Virus record (IMG/VR): IMGVR_UViG_3300028800_000285
Span: 1-26,307 of that record
Origin: a virus
Reading direction: 5' to 3' (one strand)
Length of the DNA stretch: 26,307 nucleotides
Shown here: positions 4,600 to 10,552 of the stretch, one piece after another
Layout: each line of letters opens with the position of its first letter
Position numbering within the stretch: position 1 is the first letter of the stretch
Made by a program: the position numbers and the translations under genes
The notes under the pieces: model-generated
Databases searched by the model: none
What the model was told of the DNA's origin: nothing
The model's input: the letters and a program-made list of their open reading frames with translations, nothing else

Positions 4600-6258
4600 C
4601 TACTTCTCCTCCTTGATTCGGACCTTGGCGCCCGGTGCCTTCTGGTAGCCATCCGACTCCTTCGTGAGGAGCCCCATCGCGAGCAGCTTCTCGCACTCAC
4701 GATGGACGTTGCCGCCGTTCGCGCTCGGCCCCGTCCGGCTCAGCTCCTTCACGATGGCGTTCGACGTCTTCGCCTCGTTCATGAAGCCGAGAGAAAGGAG
4801 CCGCGCGATGCGACCACGGAGCGAGCTGCCGTCGAGCGTGACCTCGGTCTTCGTGACCTGCACCTCCAGCTCGGTACCGGACGCGAGGAGCGTGATGAGC
4901 GACGGGGCCTCCTCGATGAGCCGGGCCTTGATCTTCTGATAGAGCGCTTCTTCTTTCATGGTCCATCCTTCCGGGGGAATCGTGTTCTTGGGGTAAACGA
5001 AGTCGAACACCCTGGACTTCGTCGCTGGGTCCATGTGGATCGCGGGGGGCGCATCGGGCAGCTCTGGCGACCGCGACTCTCTCACCTGAAACTGCGAGAC
5101 GTACTTTCCTGCGAACATCATCTCACCATCGACGATGACGTTCCTGCAGGCCGTGGCCAGGCGCTTGACCTCGATATTCAGGATTCGATCGAAGTGAGCG
5201 CCGAGCCGCTCCCAGTCCACAGGGGCGGGGACCTCGACGCGCGAGGGCACCGCGGCGGCACTTTCCGCGAGTGCCTTCTCGGCCTTCACCCGGAGCGCGC
5301 GCTCCTCGGCGAGCGCCGCTTGGAGCGCCTTCGGGTCTTCGAGCCGCACCGCCTCGATGGTCTTCGCAAGGCTCGCGCGAAGCGCATCGAGCGCCGGCTT
5401 CGCGAGCCGCGTAGGCTCCGCCCGGCGCTTCCCCAGCTCCGGCGTCGCGCTCGAATCGAACGTCTCAGGCCGACGCACCGCATGCACCCCGAACTCATTG
5501 ATCGCCGGGTGCGCACACGCGAAGAGCGCCGTCCCTCGGGGGAGATCGTTGAGCGTCGCCACGAGAGAAGCGGCCTTCTCCTTCGAGGTCTTCGTGCCGA
5601 GCCACTTCTTCACTCGGTCCTGGTCGAGCGTCCCCGGGGCGCGGAAGCTCACCAGCATCTCGCAGATCTCACTCACCCCCTTGTTGAGGTCGCTCCCCCG
5701 CTGCGTCATGAACACGCGACCGAGCGCGTGCTTCCGCCCGAGCTTCGCGAACGAGAGCATCGCCGCGAGGCAGCGCTTCGCCTCCTTCGTGCCGTCCGGA
5801 TTCTGGGGGATGAACTCCTGCGCCTCGTCGAAGAACACGACCAGCGACTCCCGGTTGTGGTGGTAGAGAGAGCGCGCGAAGTCGGCCAGGAACTGGAAGT
5901 AGTCCGCGCCGCCATCGAAGTGCTCGAAGTCGAGGATGGTGCTCTGGGACAGGTGAGCGATCGTCTCGCCGAGGACCGCACCCGCCTTGATGTTCAGCGG
6001 GATGTCCGCGTGGTCGCCCCCGAAGACGACGACGGGGAGCCCCTCGCTCTTCCCGTCAGCGGAGCTTTTGAGACCCCAGTGGTCCCCCTTCCTGTCGATG
6101 ACACAGAAGCGGATGCCGGCACGCGCCGCCTCCTCCGCGAGGACGCGACCGAAGGTGCTCTTCCCGGTGTCGGGGACACCATAGACCACCGTCGGGAGCA
6201 GCAGCGCTTCGAGAGGGAGCGAGAGCGTCGAGGAGACATGGATTGCGGAACTCTTCAT
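4600..6258 (-). CDS. HerA/DUF87-like ATPase (FtsK-HerA superfamily)
   Basis: 552 residues. Walker A is GVPDTGKST (27-35). After it come a V-I-D-R-K-G-D strand (53-59) and a conserved F-G-G-D-H-A-D segment (79-85). Walker B is LVVFFDEAQEF (139-149), and a T-Q-R sensor-like strand lies at 185-187. This order is typical of HerA/DUF87 ATPases, ring motors that move DNA. The second half has a coiled-coil stretch (about 300-345) and a C-terminal region (about 440-552) that looks like one or two winged helices. Phages carry such proteins, usually with unknown role; packaging, DNA segregation or repair are options. ATG at 6258 overlaps the upstream stop. Unlike the other left-arm genes it is long and has intact catalytic motifs. 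Confidence 0.8.
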   Translation of the reverse strand: MKSSAIHVSSTLSLPLEALLLPTVVYGVPDTGKSTFGRVLAEEAARAGIRFCVIDRKGDHWGLKSSADGKSEGLPVVVFGGDHADIPLNIKAGAVLGETIAHLSQSTILDFEHFDGGADYFQFLADFARSLYHHNRESLVVFFDEAQEFIPQNPDGTKEAKRCLAAMLSFAKLGRKHALGRVFMTQRGSDLNKGVSEICEMLVSFRAPGTLDQDRVKKWLGTKTSKEKAASLVATLNDLPRGTALFACAHPAINEFGVHAVRRPETFDSSATPELGKRRAEPTRLAKPALDALRASLAKTIEAVRLEDPKALQAALAEERALRVKAEKALAESAAAVPSRVEVPAPVDWERLGAHFDRILNIEVKRLATACRNVIVDGEMMFAGKYVSQFQVRESRSPELPDAPPAIHMDPATKSRVFDFVYPKNTIPPEGWTMKEEALYQKIKARLIEEAPSLITLLASGTELEVQVTKTEVTLDGSSLRGRIARLLSLGFMNEAKTSNAIVKELSRTGPSANGGNVHRECEKLLAMGLLTKESDGYQKAPGAKVRIKEEK

Positions 6259-8767: not shown

Positions 8768-9585
8768 TTTCCGTCCTCCGCTGGCGGCTCGTACTGCAGT
8801 CGCTCTCGAATGGTGGTGAAGTGGACGCCCTCTGGGAAGTACTCCTCCACGACCTGCGCGGCTTTTTCTCGCGCCATCGCGAAGCCTTCCTGCCGCCCCA
8901 GCTCACGGTTCTCGGCGCCGCGCTGTGCGAGCAGCTCCCGCAGCGTGTCGGCCGCCATGACCACGGGGCACACGAGGCTCTCGACATGGTCGCCTTTGCC
9001 CTGCCAGAGCCAGACGTGTTCCTGATCGGTAGCGACGGCGCTCAGTTCCGCCCGAGCCTGCACCAGCTCTGCGCGCTCCTTGCGCCACTCATCGGCGATG
9101 TTCTCGTTCGCCTTCCTGAGCGCGGCGTTTTCGGCAAGCATCTCCTTCTCCGTCGGCCCCGAGTCAGCAACCTCAAGACGCCCCTGCTTCCAGTCTCTCA
9201 AGGCCCCCAAAACGGGCGCCACCAGCTGCAGCCACCCTTCGCAGCCCCGACCCCCTTCCGCGAAGTCCGGGGATCCGGCGCACCAAGAGAGCGCATCGAG
9301 CGCACGGAAGAGCAAGCGGTCGCGCTCAGCAACGCGCTGACTTATTACATCGCGCGGTGACTGGGGGAGGTACGGCCCCGGCACGGGCGCTGGCTTCGCA
9401 GCGCCATCCCTGTACCCGGGCAGGAACTGCACGCCGACCGTGGGCACGACAGCGGGGCGCCACACGAAGCCGCAGCTCTGGCAGGCGTGCGTGTGGTGCG
9501 GCTTCGTCGCAAACTCACCCGCGTCCACGTGCCGCTCGTGGCACATCGGGCAGAACAAGATCATCGGAACCGGGATCGCGCTCAT
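8764..9585 (-). CDS. Phage zinc-ribbon protein
   Basis: 273 residues. The N-terminus carries a zinc ribbon: C12-x2-C15, then H-V-D-x-G and H30-H31-T-H33, then C35-x2-C38 followed by W-R-P and T-V-G-V. This is a frequent phage module. The middle (about 130-200) is a coiled coil rich in Glu/Ala/Arg, and the C-terminus has another helix and an acidic tail. Good Shine-Dalgarno (GAGAGGAAA) before ATG 9585, which overlaps the upstream stop. Probably nucleic-acid associated; exact role unknown. Confidence 0.75.
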   Translation of the reverse strand: MSAIPVPMILFCPMCHERHVDAGEFATKPHHTHACQSCGFVWRPAVVPTVGVQFLPGYRDGAAKPAPVPGPYLPQSPRDVISQRVAERDRLLFRALDALSWCAGSPDFAEGGRGCEGWLQLVAPVLGALRDWKQGRLEVADSGPTEKEMLAENAALRKANENIADEWRKERAELVQARAELSAVATDQEHVWLWQGKGDHVESLVCPVVMAADTLRELLAQRGAENRELGRQEGFAMAREKAAQVVEEYFPEGVHFTTIRERLQYEPPAEDGK

Positions 9586-9911
9586 GATTTTCCTCTCTCC
9601 GCCAACGTCGGGGCGAAGTCCTTTGCGGTCTCTTCCGCGTCTTCGATGAGCCGGCGGGCCTCGTCCACCTCGCCGCCGTGGGCGGCCTGAAGAGCGCGCT
9701 GCCACTTCCAGATCGCACTGCAGATGGCGGCGGGAAGCCCGCACTCGCAGAGGCACCCCCAGTACGCTCGGTGCAGCTTGATCGCCGCGCGACGTGACAC
9801 CTCGACAGAGAGCCCCGCCTCGCGGAGGGCGTCGCGGAACTCCCGGATCGCCGCCAAGCTCAGCTTGCGAGGTCTGCGCGGCCTCCCGTATTCCGCTAGA
9901 ATGAAACTCAT
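9582..9911 (-). CDS. Hypothetical helical protein
   Basis: 109 residues. The start is put at ATG 9911, 3' of a structured non-coding stretch; an earlier in-frame start at 9962 would use part of that RNA. The N-terminus has a basic patch (R-P-R-R-P-R-K), then helices; a cluster C-L-C-E-C-G (about residues 51-56) could bind metal. Unlike most genes here it is not coupled to an upstream gene, and it may be controlled by the RNA before it. Confidence 0.6.
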   Translation of the reverse strand: MSFILAEYGRPRRPRKLSLAAIREFRDALREAGLSVEVSRRAAIKLHRAYWGCLCECGLPAAICSAIWKWQRALQAAHGGEVDEARRLIEDAEETAKDFAPTLAERGKS

Positions 9912-9931
9912 CGACTGCTCTTCTGCCTTCT

Positions 9932-9957
9932 CGAAAAGAAGCCGGTCTCTCCCGGCT
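9932..9957 (-). terminator. Hairpin with U-rich tail at the RNA 3' end
   Basis: On the minus strand, AGCCGG and CCGGCT arms (9957-9952 and 9945-9940) around a 6-nt loop are followed by TTCTTTTC. This resembles an intrinsic terminator just before the ATG at 9911, so it could end or attenuate leftward transcripts. Confidence 0.4.
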
Positions 9958-10136
9958 GTCACGGCCTCGGGCGGTACCGCCCTCTGCGGGTTTGGACTCC
10001 CGCTCCAGCTTTCTCGCCCACCGTGGGCACGTACTACCTCTGCTGGCTTGAGGTGCGGGCTTCCCCGGCTTTCAAGACTTCGTCCCGCAAAATCCCAGGT
10101 TCCCCGCTCGCCGTGAGGCGGGCGTGGTGCCGGGGG
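9932..10136 (-). ncRNA. Highly structured RNA, possibly HEARO/omegaRNA-like
   Basis: This non-coding island can form at least seven perfect stems when read leftward. They are a 7-bp closing stem (10129-10135 with 10063-10069), 10118-10122 with 10103-10107, 10050-10054 with 10036-10040, 10023-10028 with 10016-10021, 9999-10003 with 9986-9990, the 14-base palindrome 9969-9982, and 9952-9957 with 9940-9945. The loop 10041-10049 carries GCTGG, which can pair with CCAGC at 10005-10009, giving a pseudoknot. Conserved-looking unpaired bits on the minus strand include GGGGAAGCC, CCTCAAG and GAGGTAGTAC. These recall HEARO/omegaRNA, which often sit next to ATGA, as here before ATGAG at 9911. No IscB-type gene is present. 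RNA identity is inference; the pairing is seen directly. Confidence 0.5.
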
Positions 10137-10160
10137 ATGAGATCTGTATCTCTAGCTCTT

Positions 10161-10183
10161 ATCGGCTAGCTTGGCTAGCCGAT
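10161..10183. promoter_or_regulatory. Perfect 10-bp inverted repeat with GGCTAGC core
   Basis: Arms ATCGGCTAGC and GCTAGCCGAT with a 3-base spacer. It contains GGCTAGCTTGGCTAGCC (10164-10180), nearly the same word found at the divergent promoters (15921-15935) and at 25164-25180. It lies between the Lar-like stop and the structured RNA. Operator is the best reading; a terminator hairpin is possible, but no T-run follows on the leftward strand. Confidence 0.5.
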
Positions 10184-10210
10184 TTCTGACGAGGGCCTGC
10201 TCCGCGGGAT

Positions 10211-10552
10211 TCAATCCGTCGAACGCTTTCTGGGCGCGTGCTCGCGAGCCTGGGCGAGCGAGGCTTCGAGCTGGGGAGCGAGATCGGGCATGTCATCGAA
10301 GTACGCGGCCCCTTGGACTCTCGACATTCCATCGGGTAGGGAGGGGAGTGGCCGGGAGCGCTCGTTCCAGGCTTCGAGCGCCATGTCGTAGAGCCGGTCC
10401 CCGGCGAGCCCTGAGCAGCGGGGGCCGCGCGCGAAGCAAGAGCTGCACGCCGCCCAGCAGTACACACGGTCGCTCAGCCCTGGGGCCGCGTCCGTGACGA
10501 GATCAGGCTCGTTCGTTTCGCCGCAGTGAGCGCACGGGAGCGGGGCGCTCAT
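10211..10552 (-). CDS. Lar-like restriction alleviation / zinc-finger protein
   Basis: 113 residues. N-terminal C7-x2-C10, then C-W-A-A-C-x2-C about 25 residues on, an R-G-P-R segment and then A-L-E-A-W-N-E-R. This arrangement (two Cys pairs followed by a helix ending in A-W-N-x-R) is the pattern of Lar-type proteins, phage and prophage products that dampen type I restriction. The C-terminal ~50 residues are extra and Pro/Arg-rich. Start ATG 10552 overlaps the upstream stop. Family match is by motif; anti-restriction activity is inferred. Confidence 0.65.
   Translation of the reverse strand: MSAPLPCAHCGETNEPDLVTDAAPGLSDRVYCWAACSSCFARGPRCSGLAGDRLYDMALEAWNERSRPLPSLPDGMSRVQGAAYFDDMPDLAPQLEASLAQAREHAPRKRSTD

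Follow-up and report, generated by a model that had tools for sequence, protein, structure and literature searches.

What does a phage keep in some 300 bases that lie between two of its genes and encode no recognizable protein? The question is raised by positions 10210-9912 of the window (the whole 26,307-nt stretch of viral DNA analysed here), where an earlier note had remarked on about 300 non-coding bases. The gap indeed measures 299 nt; it is flanked by two minus-strand genes and runs from the stop of a Lar-like gene at 10211 to the next ATG at 9911. Neither strand of 10210-9912 holds an ORF matching Pfam or PHROG, and none of the minus-strand frames that run through it is gene-like, the sole possible extension being that of the downstream ORF from GTG 9962. 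The upstream neighbour (10211-10549, minus strand) encodes a Lar-like restriction alleviation protein (phrog_599), and a terminase-large-subunit-like ATPase (phrog_2666) is encoded at 4603-6252 on the minus strand. The window has no tRNA. Within the gap, the interval 9932-10136 had been read as a compact structured RNA, possibly of the HEARO/omegaRNA kind. Our answer is that the interval contains, on the minus strand, what is, as judged from sequence comparison, one copy of a very widespread and uncatalogued phage RNA family.

Fold energy alone is weak evidence for 9932-10136: the minus strand has an MFE z-score of -1.21 and the plus strand one of -0.69. The longer interval 9906-10215 reaches z = -3.15, and a separate 10-bp palindrome at 10161-10183 adds to its low folding energy. 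This palindrome is a perfect 10-bp inverted repeat, ATCGGCTAGC-TTG-GCTAGCCGAT, situated just past the end of the Lar-like gene. The pairings that the earlier note had named are present, including the 7-bp closing stem (UCACGGC at 10116-10110 with GCCGUGA at 9965-9959, minus strand) and the pseudoknot (CCAGC at 10046-10042 with GCUGG at 10009-10005, minus strand), but in DNA this rich in GC its perfect stems as a group do not exceed chance (32 against 27.7 in shuffled sequences, with 26 of 100 shuffles reaching 32). The claim of a structured RNA on the minus strand therefore holds, although most of the stems counted in its favour are at chance level. What raises the element above chance is comparative evidence, namely a covarying 3' element, and not folding.

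In a low-stringency search of phage records, positions 9967-9929 and a core at 9964-9941 recurred in unrelated phages, in gaps that carry no annotation. The 21-mer TGACAGCCGGGAGAGACCGGC (minus strand, 9961-9941) occurs in at least 120 IMG/VR stretches with unrelated flanks. Two forms of the loop of a 3' hairpin, P3, namely GGAGAGAC and GGAAAGAC, were found in at least 120 IMG/VR stretches each, against a single stretch for a control in which the loop octamer was rearranged. We then left the stem open in two patterns. Among the matches listed for pattern 1 (GTGACAG-NNN-GGAGAGAC-NNN-CA) there are 168 distinct copies, in 135 of which the three open P3 pairs are all Watson-Crick; the departures comprise 29 G-U against 2 A-C pairs, and with many G-U and few A-C departures, the motif strand is identified as the functional single strand. 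Pattern 2 (CTGACAG-NNN-GGAAAGAC-NNN-CA) has 102 non-redundant copies among the matches listed, whose pair cells are Watson-Crick in 290 cases, G-U in 16 and mismatched in none; 86 of these copies are fully Watson-Crick, compared with 20.8 when the 3' strands are swapped among copies.

A second stem, S2, joins the four letters before UGACA to a 4-mer farther upstream, which usually has an A in front of it. This pairing is present in 119 of 202 copies (65 in swapped controls, at most 83) and in 43 of 100 copies of a second set (20.8 in swapped controls, at most 30). In a 41-sequence alignment, S2 and P3 are paired in 99.2% of cells, six of the nine pairs show compensatory changes, and 50 cells have changes in both partners (9.9 in shuffles). 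Three of the four S2 pairs have compensatory changes in this alignment, but the 41 sequences were picked for S2 pairing, so the support for S2 leans on the swapped controls. Moreover, the letters around the upstream strand of S2 (S2a) can pair mutually to give a pseudoknot; this pairing, S1, is seen in 26 of 72 copies against 7.3 in controls, none of 300 controls reaching it. Junction and loop together hold about 20 near-invariant letters. These comparisons show a conserved 3' module in which P3, with loop GGAGAGAC or GGAAAGAC, comes after S2 and the invariant UGACA; its stems vary in concert and its loops do not change, and in a subset of copies S1 brackets S2a into a pseudoknot. The earlier note had proposed to look for compensatory changes in related phages: P3 and S2 do covary among family copies, but close relatives of the window phage were found neither through its packaging ATPase nor through the downstream gene. 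A kink-turn reading of GAA...UGA was rejected, the flanking C-helix being unsupported (position -6). One subgroup of copies (L025, L060, L098, L099, L137 and others) has a conserved hairpin, GAGUAGG...CCUGCAACGUC, upstream of S2a, and another has GCGACACCUGC in common.

The covariance model R1 finds one clear member in the window, at 9979-9941 on the minus strand (34.3 bits, E 1e-7), the second-best window score being 10.8 bits. UGACAG followed by a stem and a GGRRAGAC hairpin is matched exactly at 9961-9941 (minus strand), and the 3' end of the element, 9965-9941, reads GCCG-UGACA-GCCGG-GAGAGA-CCGGC on that strand. The parts of the element and its surroundings are as follows.

9941-9956, minus strand: P3 hairpin, GCCGG (9956-9952), loop GAGAGA (9951-9946) and CCGGC (9945-9941); family hallmark GNNN-GGAGAGAC-NNNC.
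9957-9961, minus strand: UGACA linker from S2 to P3, invariant in the 41-sequence alignment.
9962-9965, minus strand: S2b, GCCG, the 3' strand of the upstream stem; S2 is supported family-wide.
9969-10003, minus strand: two small hairpins within the candidate S2 loop, GCGGG (10003-9999) with CCCGC (9990-9986) and GGGCG (9982-9978) with CGCCC (9973-9969).
10015-10029, minus strand: S2a candidate 2, CGGU (10023-10020), in the loop of the hairpin UGCCC-A-CGGU-GGGCG; candidate S1/S2 pseudoknot of the kind seen in other copies.
10031-10136, minus strand: upstream part of the interval, with hairpin ACCUC/GAGGU (10054-10036), whose loop pairs with 10009-10005.
10110-10116, minus strand: S2a candidate 1, UCACGGC, with seven Watson-Crick pairs to 9965-9959 (the closing stem).
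9585-9911, minus strand: downstream protein gene, 109 aa, without known family; its start codon lies 29 nt past P3, the usual family spacing.

The window's GCCG at 9965-9962 can pair well at two places, 10113-10110 and 10023-10020, and about 3% of swapped controls yield a fit such as candidate 2 within 60 nt. For S1 the window offers UGCCC/GGGCG as a candidate, S1 being limited to a subset family-wide. When compared with other copies by blastn and nhmmer, 10031-10136 shows no similarity, and the part of the whole interval that is shared is the last ~25 nt only. The conserved part is these last ~25 nt with an S2 partner, whereas the upstream stems had been stressed before. The hairpin with a U-rich tail that had been described is P3 (9956-9941), the sole terminator-like site found; U-rich sequence does follow P3 in the window, whereas the letter after P3 is A, not U, in 150 of 177 family copies.

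Copies occur in phages of Stenotrophomonas, Pseudomonas, Cronobacter, Brevundimonas, Aeromonas, E. coli, Klebsiella, Acinetobacter, Rhodobacter, Phaeobacter and cyanobacteria. Genome contigs provide 71 stretches with the element from many bacterial phyla (Pseudomonadota, Chloroflexota, Cyanobacteriota, Planctomycetota, Spirochaetota, Bacillota, Bacteroidota, Acidobacteriota, Myxococcota and others), and the copies sampled there adjoin integrase, anti-repressor, portal and head genes. There are one to four copies per genome, and several gaps hold tandem copies. Annotated copies sit mostly in gaps between genes; a coding gene across the stretch in homologues had been named as a finding contrary to an RNA. 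Most copies have a gene or tRNA just downstream. A co-directional tRNA lies within 300 nt of 31 of 201 copies (2.5 expected) and, in the second set, 13 of 102 (1.9 expected), with none antisense in either set. In particular, 15 tRNAs of the first set start 4-15 nt past P3, and start codons are enriched 20-30 nt past P3 across the family. The genes downstream are varied (head-tail adaptor in 12 members, portal, HNH, anti-CBASS, ADP-ribosylglycohydrolase and others), and copies that lack a co-directional next gene occur in Marchewka, Bajun, RcCWillis and Alexa. Altogether, copies are shown to occupy gaps without coding sequence in phages and prophages across many phyla, co-directional with tRNA genes and often packed between them.

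Other features were observed around some copies. Four contigs of 23-25 kb from one genome of Stappia albiluteola (L230, L243, L252, L284) carry one copy each, possibly in several related prophages. Long non-coding stretches of 0.3-1.5 kb, past repressor-like genes or near terminase, hold several structured RNA modules (L308 571-2086; L310 1184-2313; L309 2280-3313; L289 1308-1993; L286 2971-3281; L296 1424-2127), and phages from different genera have these modules in common in a mosaic pattern; one module in L289 is RprA-like, below the Rfam cut-off. The Brevundimonas jumbo phage Marchewka has a permuted tmRNA match (L290 3883-3998, 52 bits) near tRNA-Cys, and a tmRNA is annotated in Bajun. 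A tmRNA-like reading of some flanks was dropped, as these proved on inspection to be ORF ends.

Applied to the P1 genome, R1 returns a candidate at 71155-71197 (17.1 bits, genome-wide E 0.011), in the unannotated gap from tRNA-Ile2 to ban. This candidate is the 3' end of a conserved RNA of ~180 nt (P1 71011-71202; L437 812-1003), also present in mEp390, PAT1, BUCT708 and others, with its own consensus structure that ends in S2, UGAC and P3. DNA matching the P1-type RNA is found in 1,089 of 5,426 complete E. coli genomes (the rows shown annotate no RNA there) and also in P1, P7, phiV10, cdtI and others; no published name for it was found. Its conserved 5' domain of ~120 nt was not detected in the window, so that only the 3' module is common to the window copy and the P1-type RNA. 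We regard the latter as a probable related form, the link resting on the 3' module (R1 at 17.1 bits in P1) and on habitat, and not on the whole molecule.

Could the gap instead hold something already known, or no RNA at all? An orphan HEARO/omegaRNA guide, serving an IscB nuclease encoded elsewhere, was a suggestion of the earlier note, and a true HEARO (119.9 bits) does lie ~50 nt upstream of a family copy on IMG/VR contig L318 (657-896, minus strand). We nevertheless give this identity next to no credence: the Rfam HEARO model (RF02033) is silent in the window even at E<=10, although it detects true HEARO elsewhere at up to 165.6 bits, and the sequence pieces cited in its favour (GGGGAAGCC, CCTCAAG and GAGGTAGTAC) are absent from the HEARO consensus and from within the HEARO RNA of all six example loci. 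A pattern of the three pieces had 0 matches in an IMG/VR search. It was also remarked that no IscB-like nuclease is near, and no HNH or IscB was found among the window proteins scanned. Coding sequence or chance folding is scarcely credible: the interval's z of merely -1.21, and a GTG at 9962, within the element, that might serve as start codon of the downstream ORF, are set against the same 21-mer and covarying stems in at least 120 contigs with unrelated flanks and the mostly intergenic position of annotated copies. A hairpin acting as DNA, whether a recombination site or a single-strand hairpin promoter, would also tolerate G-T pairs, and some copies are mosaic modules common to distant phages; we hold it very improbable, however, given the strict co-direction with tRNAs (0 antisense), the position within arrays of other structured RNAs, and the pseudoknot and loop conservation. 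Searching Rfam at gathering thresholds and at E<=10 gave only a chance match to Giardia U6 in the window. In the window, as in the other scanned loci that carry it, the element has no overlap with an Rfam 15 family, self-cleaving ribozyme families included, and motif strings and subject terms retrieved no description from open-access papers (subscription journals were outside the scope). A covarying family with no Rfam overlap in the loci scanned supports the third alternative that had been offered, a new phage RNA class.

As to function, the near-constant UGACA and P3 loop, together with independence of any gene, suggest that the RNA either has a conserved partner in the host or is active by itself. 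We see about an even chance that the element is a small non-coding RNA released from longer phage transcripts and working with conserved host machinery. It would be made as part of such transcripts and freed by processing as an RNA of ~70-190 nt, for example through the enzymes that process the adjacent tRNAs; it may then work with a host component conserved across bacteria, such as the ribosome, RNA polymerase or an RNase. The packing with tRNAs, the tandem copies and the copies without a next gene favour a small freed RNA, and a conserved host component is suggested because the module is near-unchanged in phages of unrelated hosts and tracks no single phage gene. Three traits of the window copy count against this reading: its two possible S2 partners, the U-rich sequence past P3 and the lack of a tRNA. 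Much would also fit a cis-acting leader, whose nascent RNA might bind RNA polymerase, block Rho, or steer processing or translation, and so secure expression of the downstream tRNA or gene. A gene or tRNA stands just downstream of most copies; spacing is tight (tRNAs at 4-15 nt, start codons enriched at 20-30 nt, that of the window at 29 nt); and copies are co-directional irrespective of gene identity, some lying ahead of untranslated tRNA arrays. The HK022 put RNA is an antiterminator whose nascent RNA binds RNA polymerase. It is likewise built of two stem-loops (PMC9378689). Such a leader is the main rival, but we consider it rather unlikely: several copies lack a co-directional downstream gene, tandem copies occur without intervening genes, and no family match falls at HK022 put, the only notable match in that genome lying in IS903. 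A narrower reading, P3 as a structured Shine-Dalgarno, was not adopted: a start codon follows P3 by 4-13 nt in some copies that show no obvious SD, but most copies of the 20-30-nt class have their own. A new self-cleaving ribozyme of pistol-like topology, with UGACA as the candidate cleavage linker, appears improbable; the compact pseudoknot, the ~20 near-invariant junction and loop letters, and a scattered distribution independent of genes and hosts, beside tRNAs and ORF starts, speak for it, but Rfam ribozyme families match no copy and S1 is clear in a subset only.

Beyond the freed RNA that we prefer, it is possible, with a chance somewhat short of even, that this is among the most widespread phage non-coding RNA families and that it acts on a universal host machine (RNA polymerase, the ribosome or an RNase) or is a new class of self-cleaving ribozyme. 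A fixed RNA core common to phages of many phyla implies a shared target or a built-in activity, and the family has been overlooked even next to a tRNA gene of the model phage P1. The P1-type form is present in about one-fifth of complete E. coli genomes, so its function is directly testable in laboratory strains. The old question of the stable non-tRNA RNAs in phage tRNA arrays (e.g. T4 RNA C and D) now has a conserved and tractable example. The novelty is the RNA family itself; its function may yet be of a known kind.

Several known systems invite comparison. HEARO is likewise a structured non-coding RNA of ~200 nt found in many bacteria, and once beside a family copy (L318), but its consensus and structure are different, the window has neither a model match nor, among the proteins scanned, a nuclease gene, and the present family lacks multi-copy IS-like bursts. 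The C4 antisense RNA (RF01695) of P1, P7 and prophages is another small structured phage RNA found in P1; there, C4 lies at 48.3 kb and the family element at 71.2 kb, and the C4 model misses the window and the element in every tested phage, with a control match elsewhere in P1. HK022 put shares with the element its phage origin, two stem-loops and a place in early operons, but it was described for lambdoid phages, whereas the present family spans many phyla; its candidacy as a relative was rejected. T4 RNA C and RNA D (species 1 and 2) are likewise small and stable and sit among the tRNAs of a phage array (T4 annotation), and we know of no function for them; the T4 tRNA region gives R1 no score above 2.4 bits, and that one falls outside RNA C and D, while the T4 genome has no match. 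In the pistol ribozyme a hairpin loop pairs downstream, a second hairpin follows, and cleavage takes place in the linker before the last hairpin. The family has a similar order of hairpin-loop pseudoknot and hairpin, in which the invariant UGACA may be the counterpart of the cleaved linker, but the conserved letters are different and no Rfam ribozyme matches. The P1-type RNA has an extra conserved 5' domain of ~120 nt relative to the window copy and shares with it S2, a UGAC linker, P3 with a related loop (GGAAGAGA/U) and the family's tRNA habitat.
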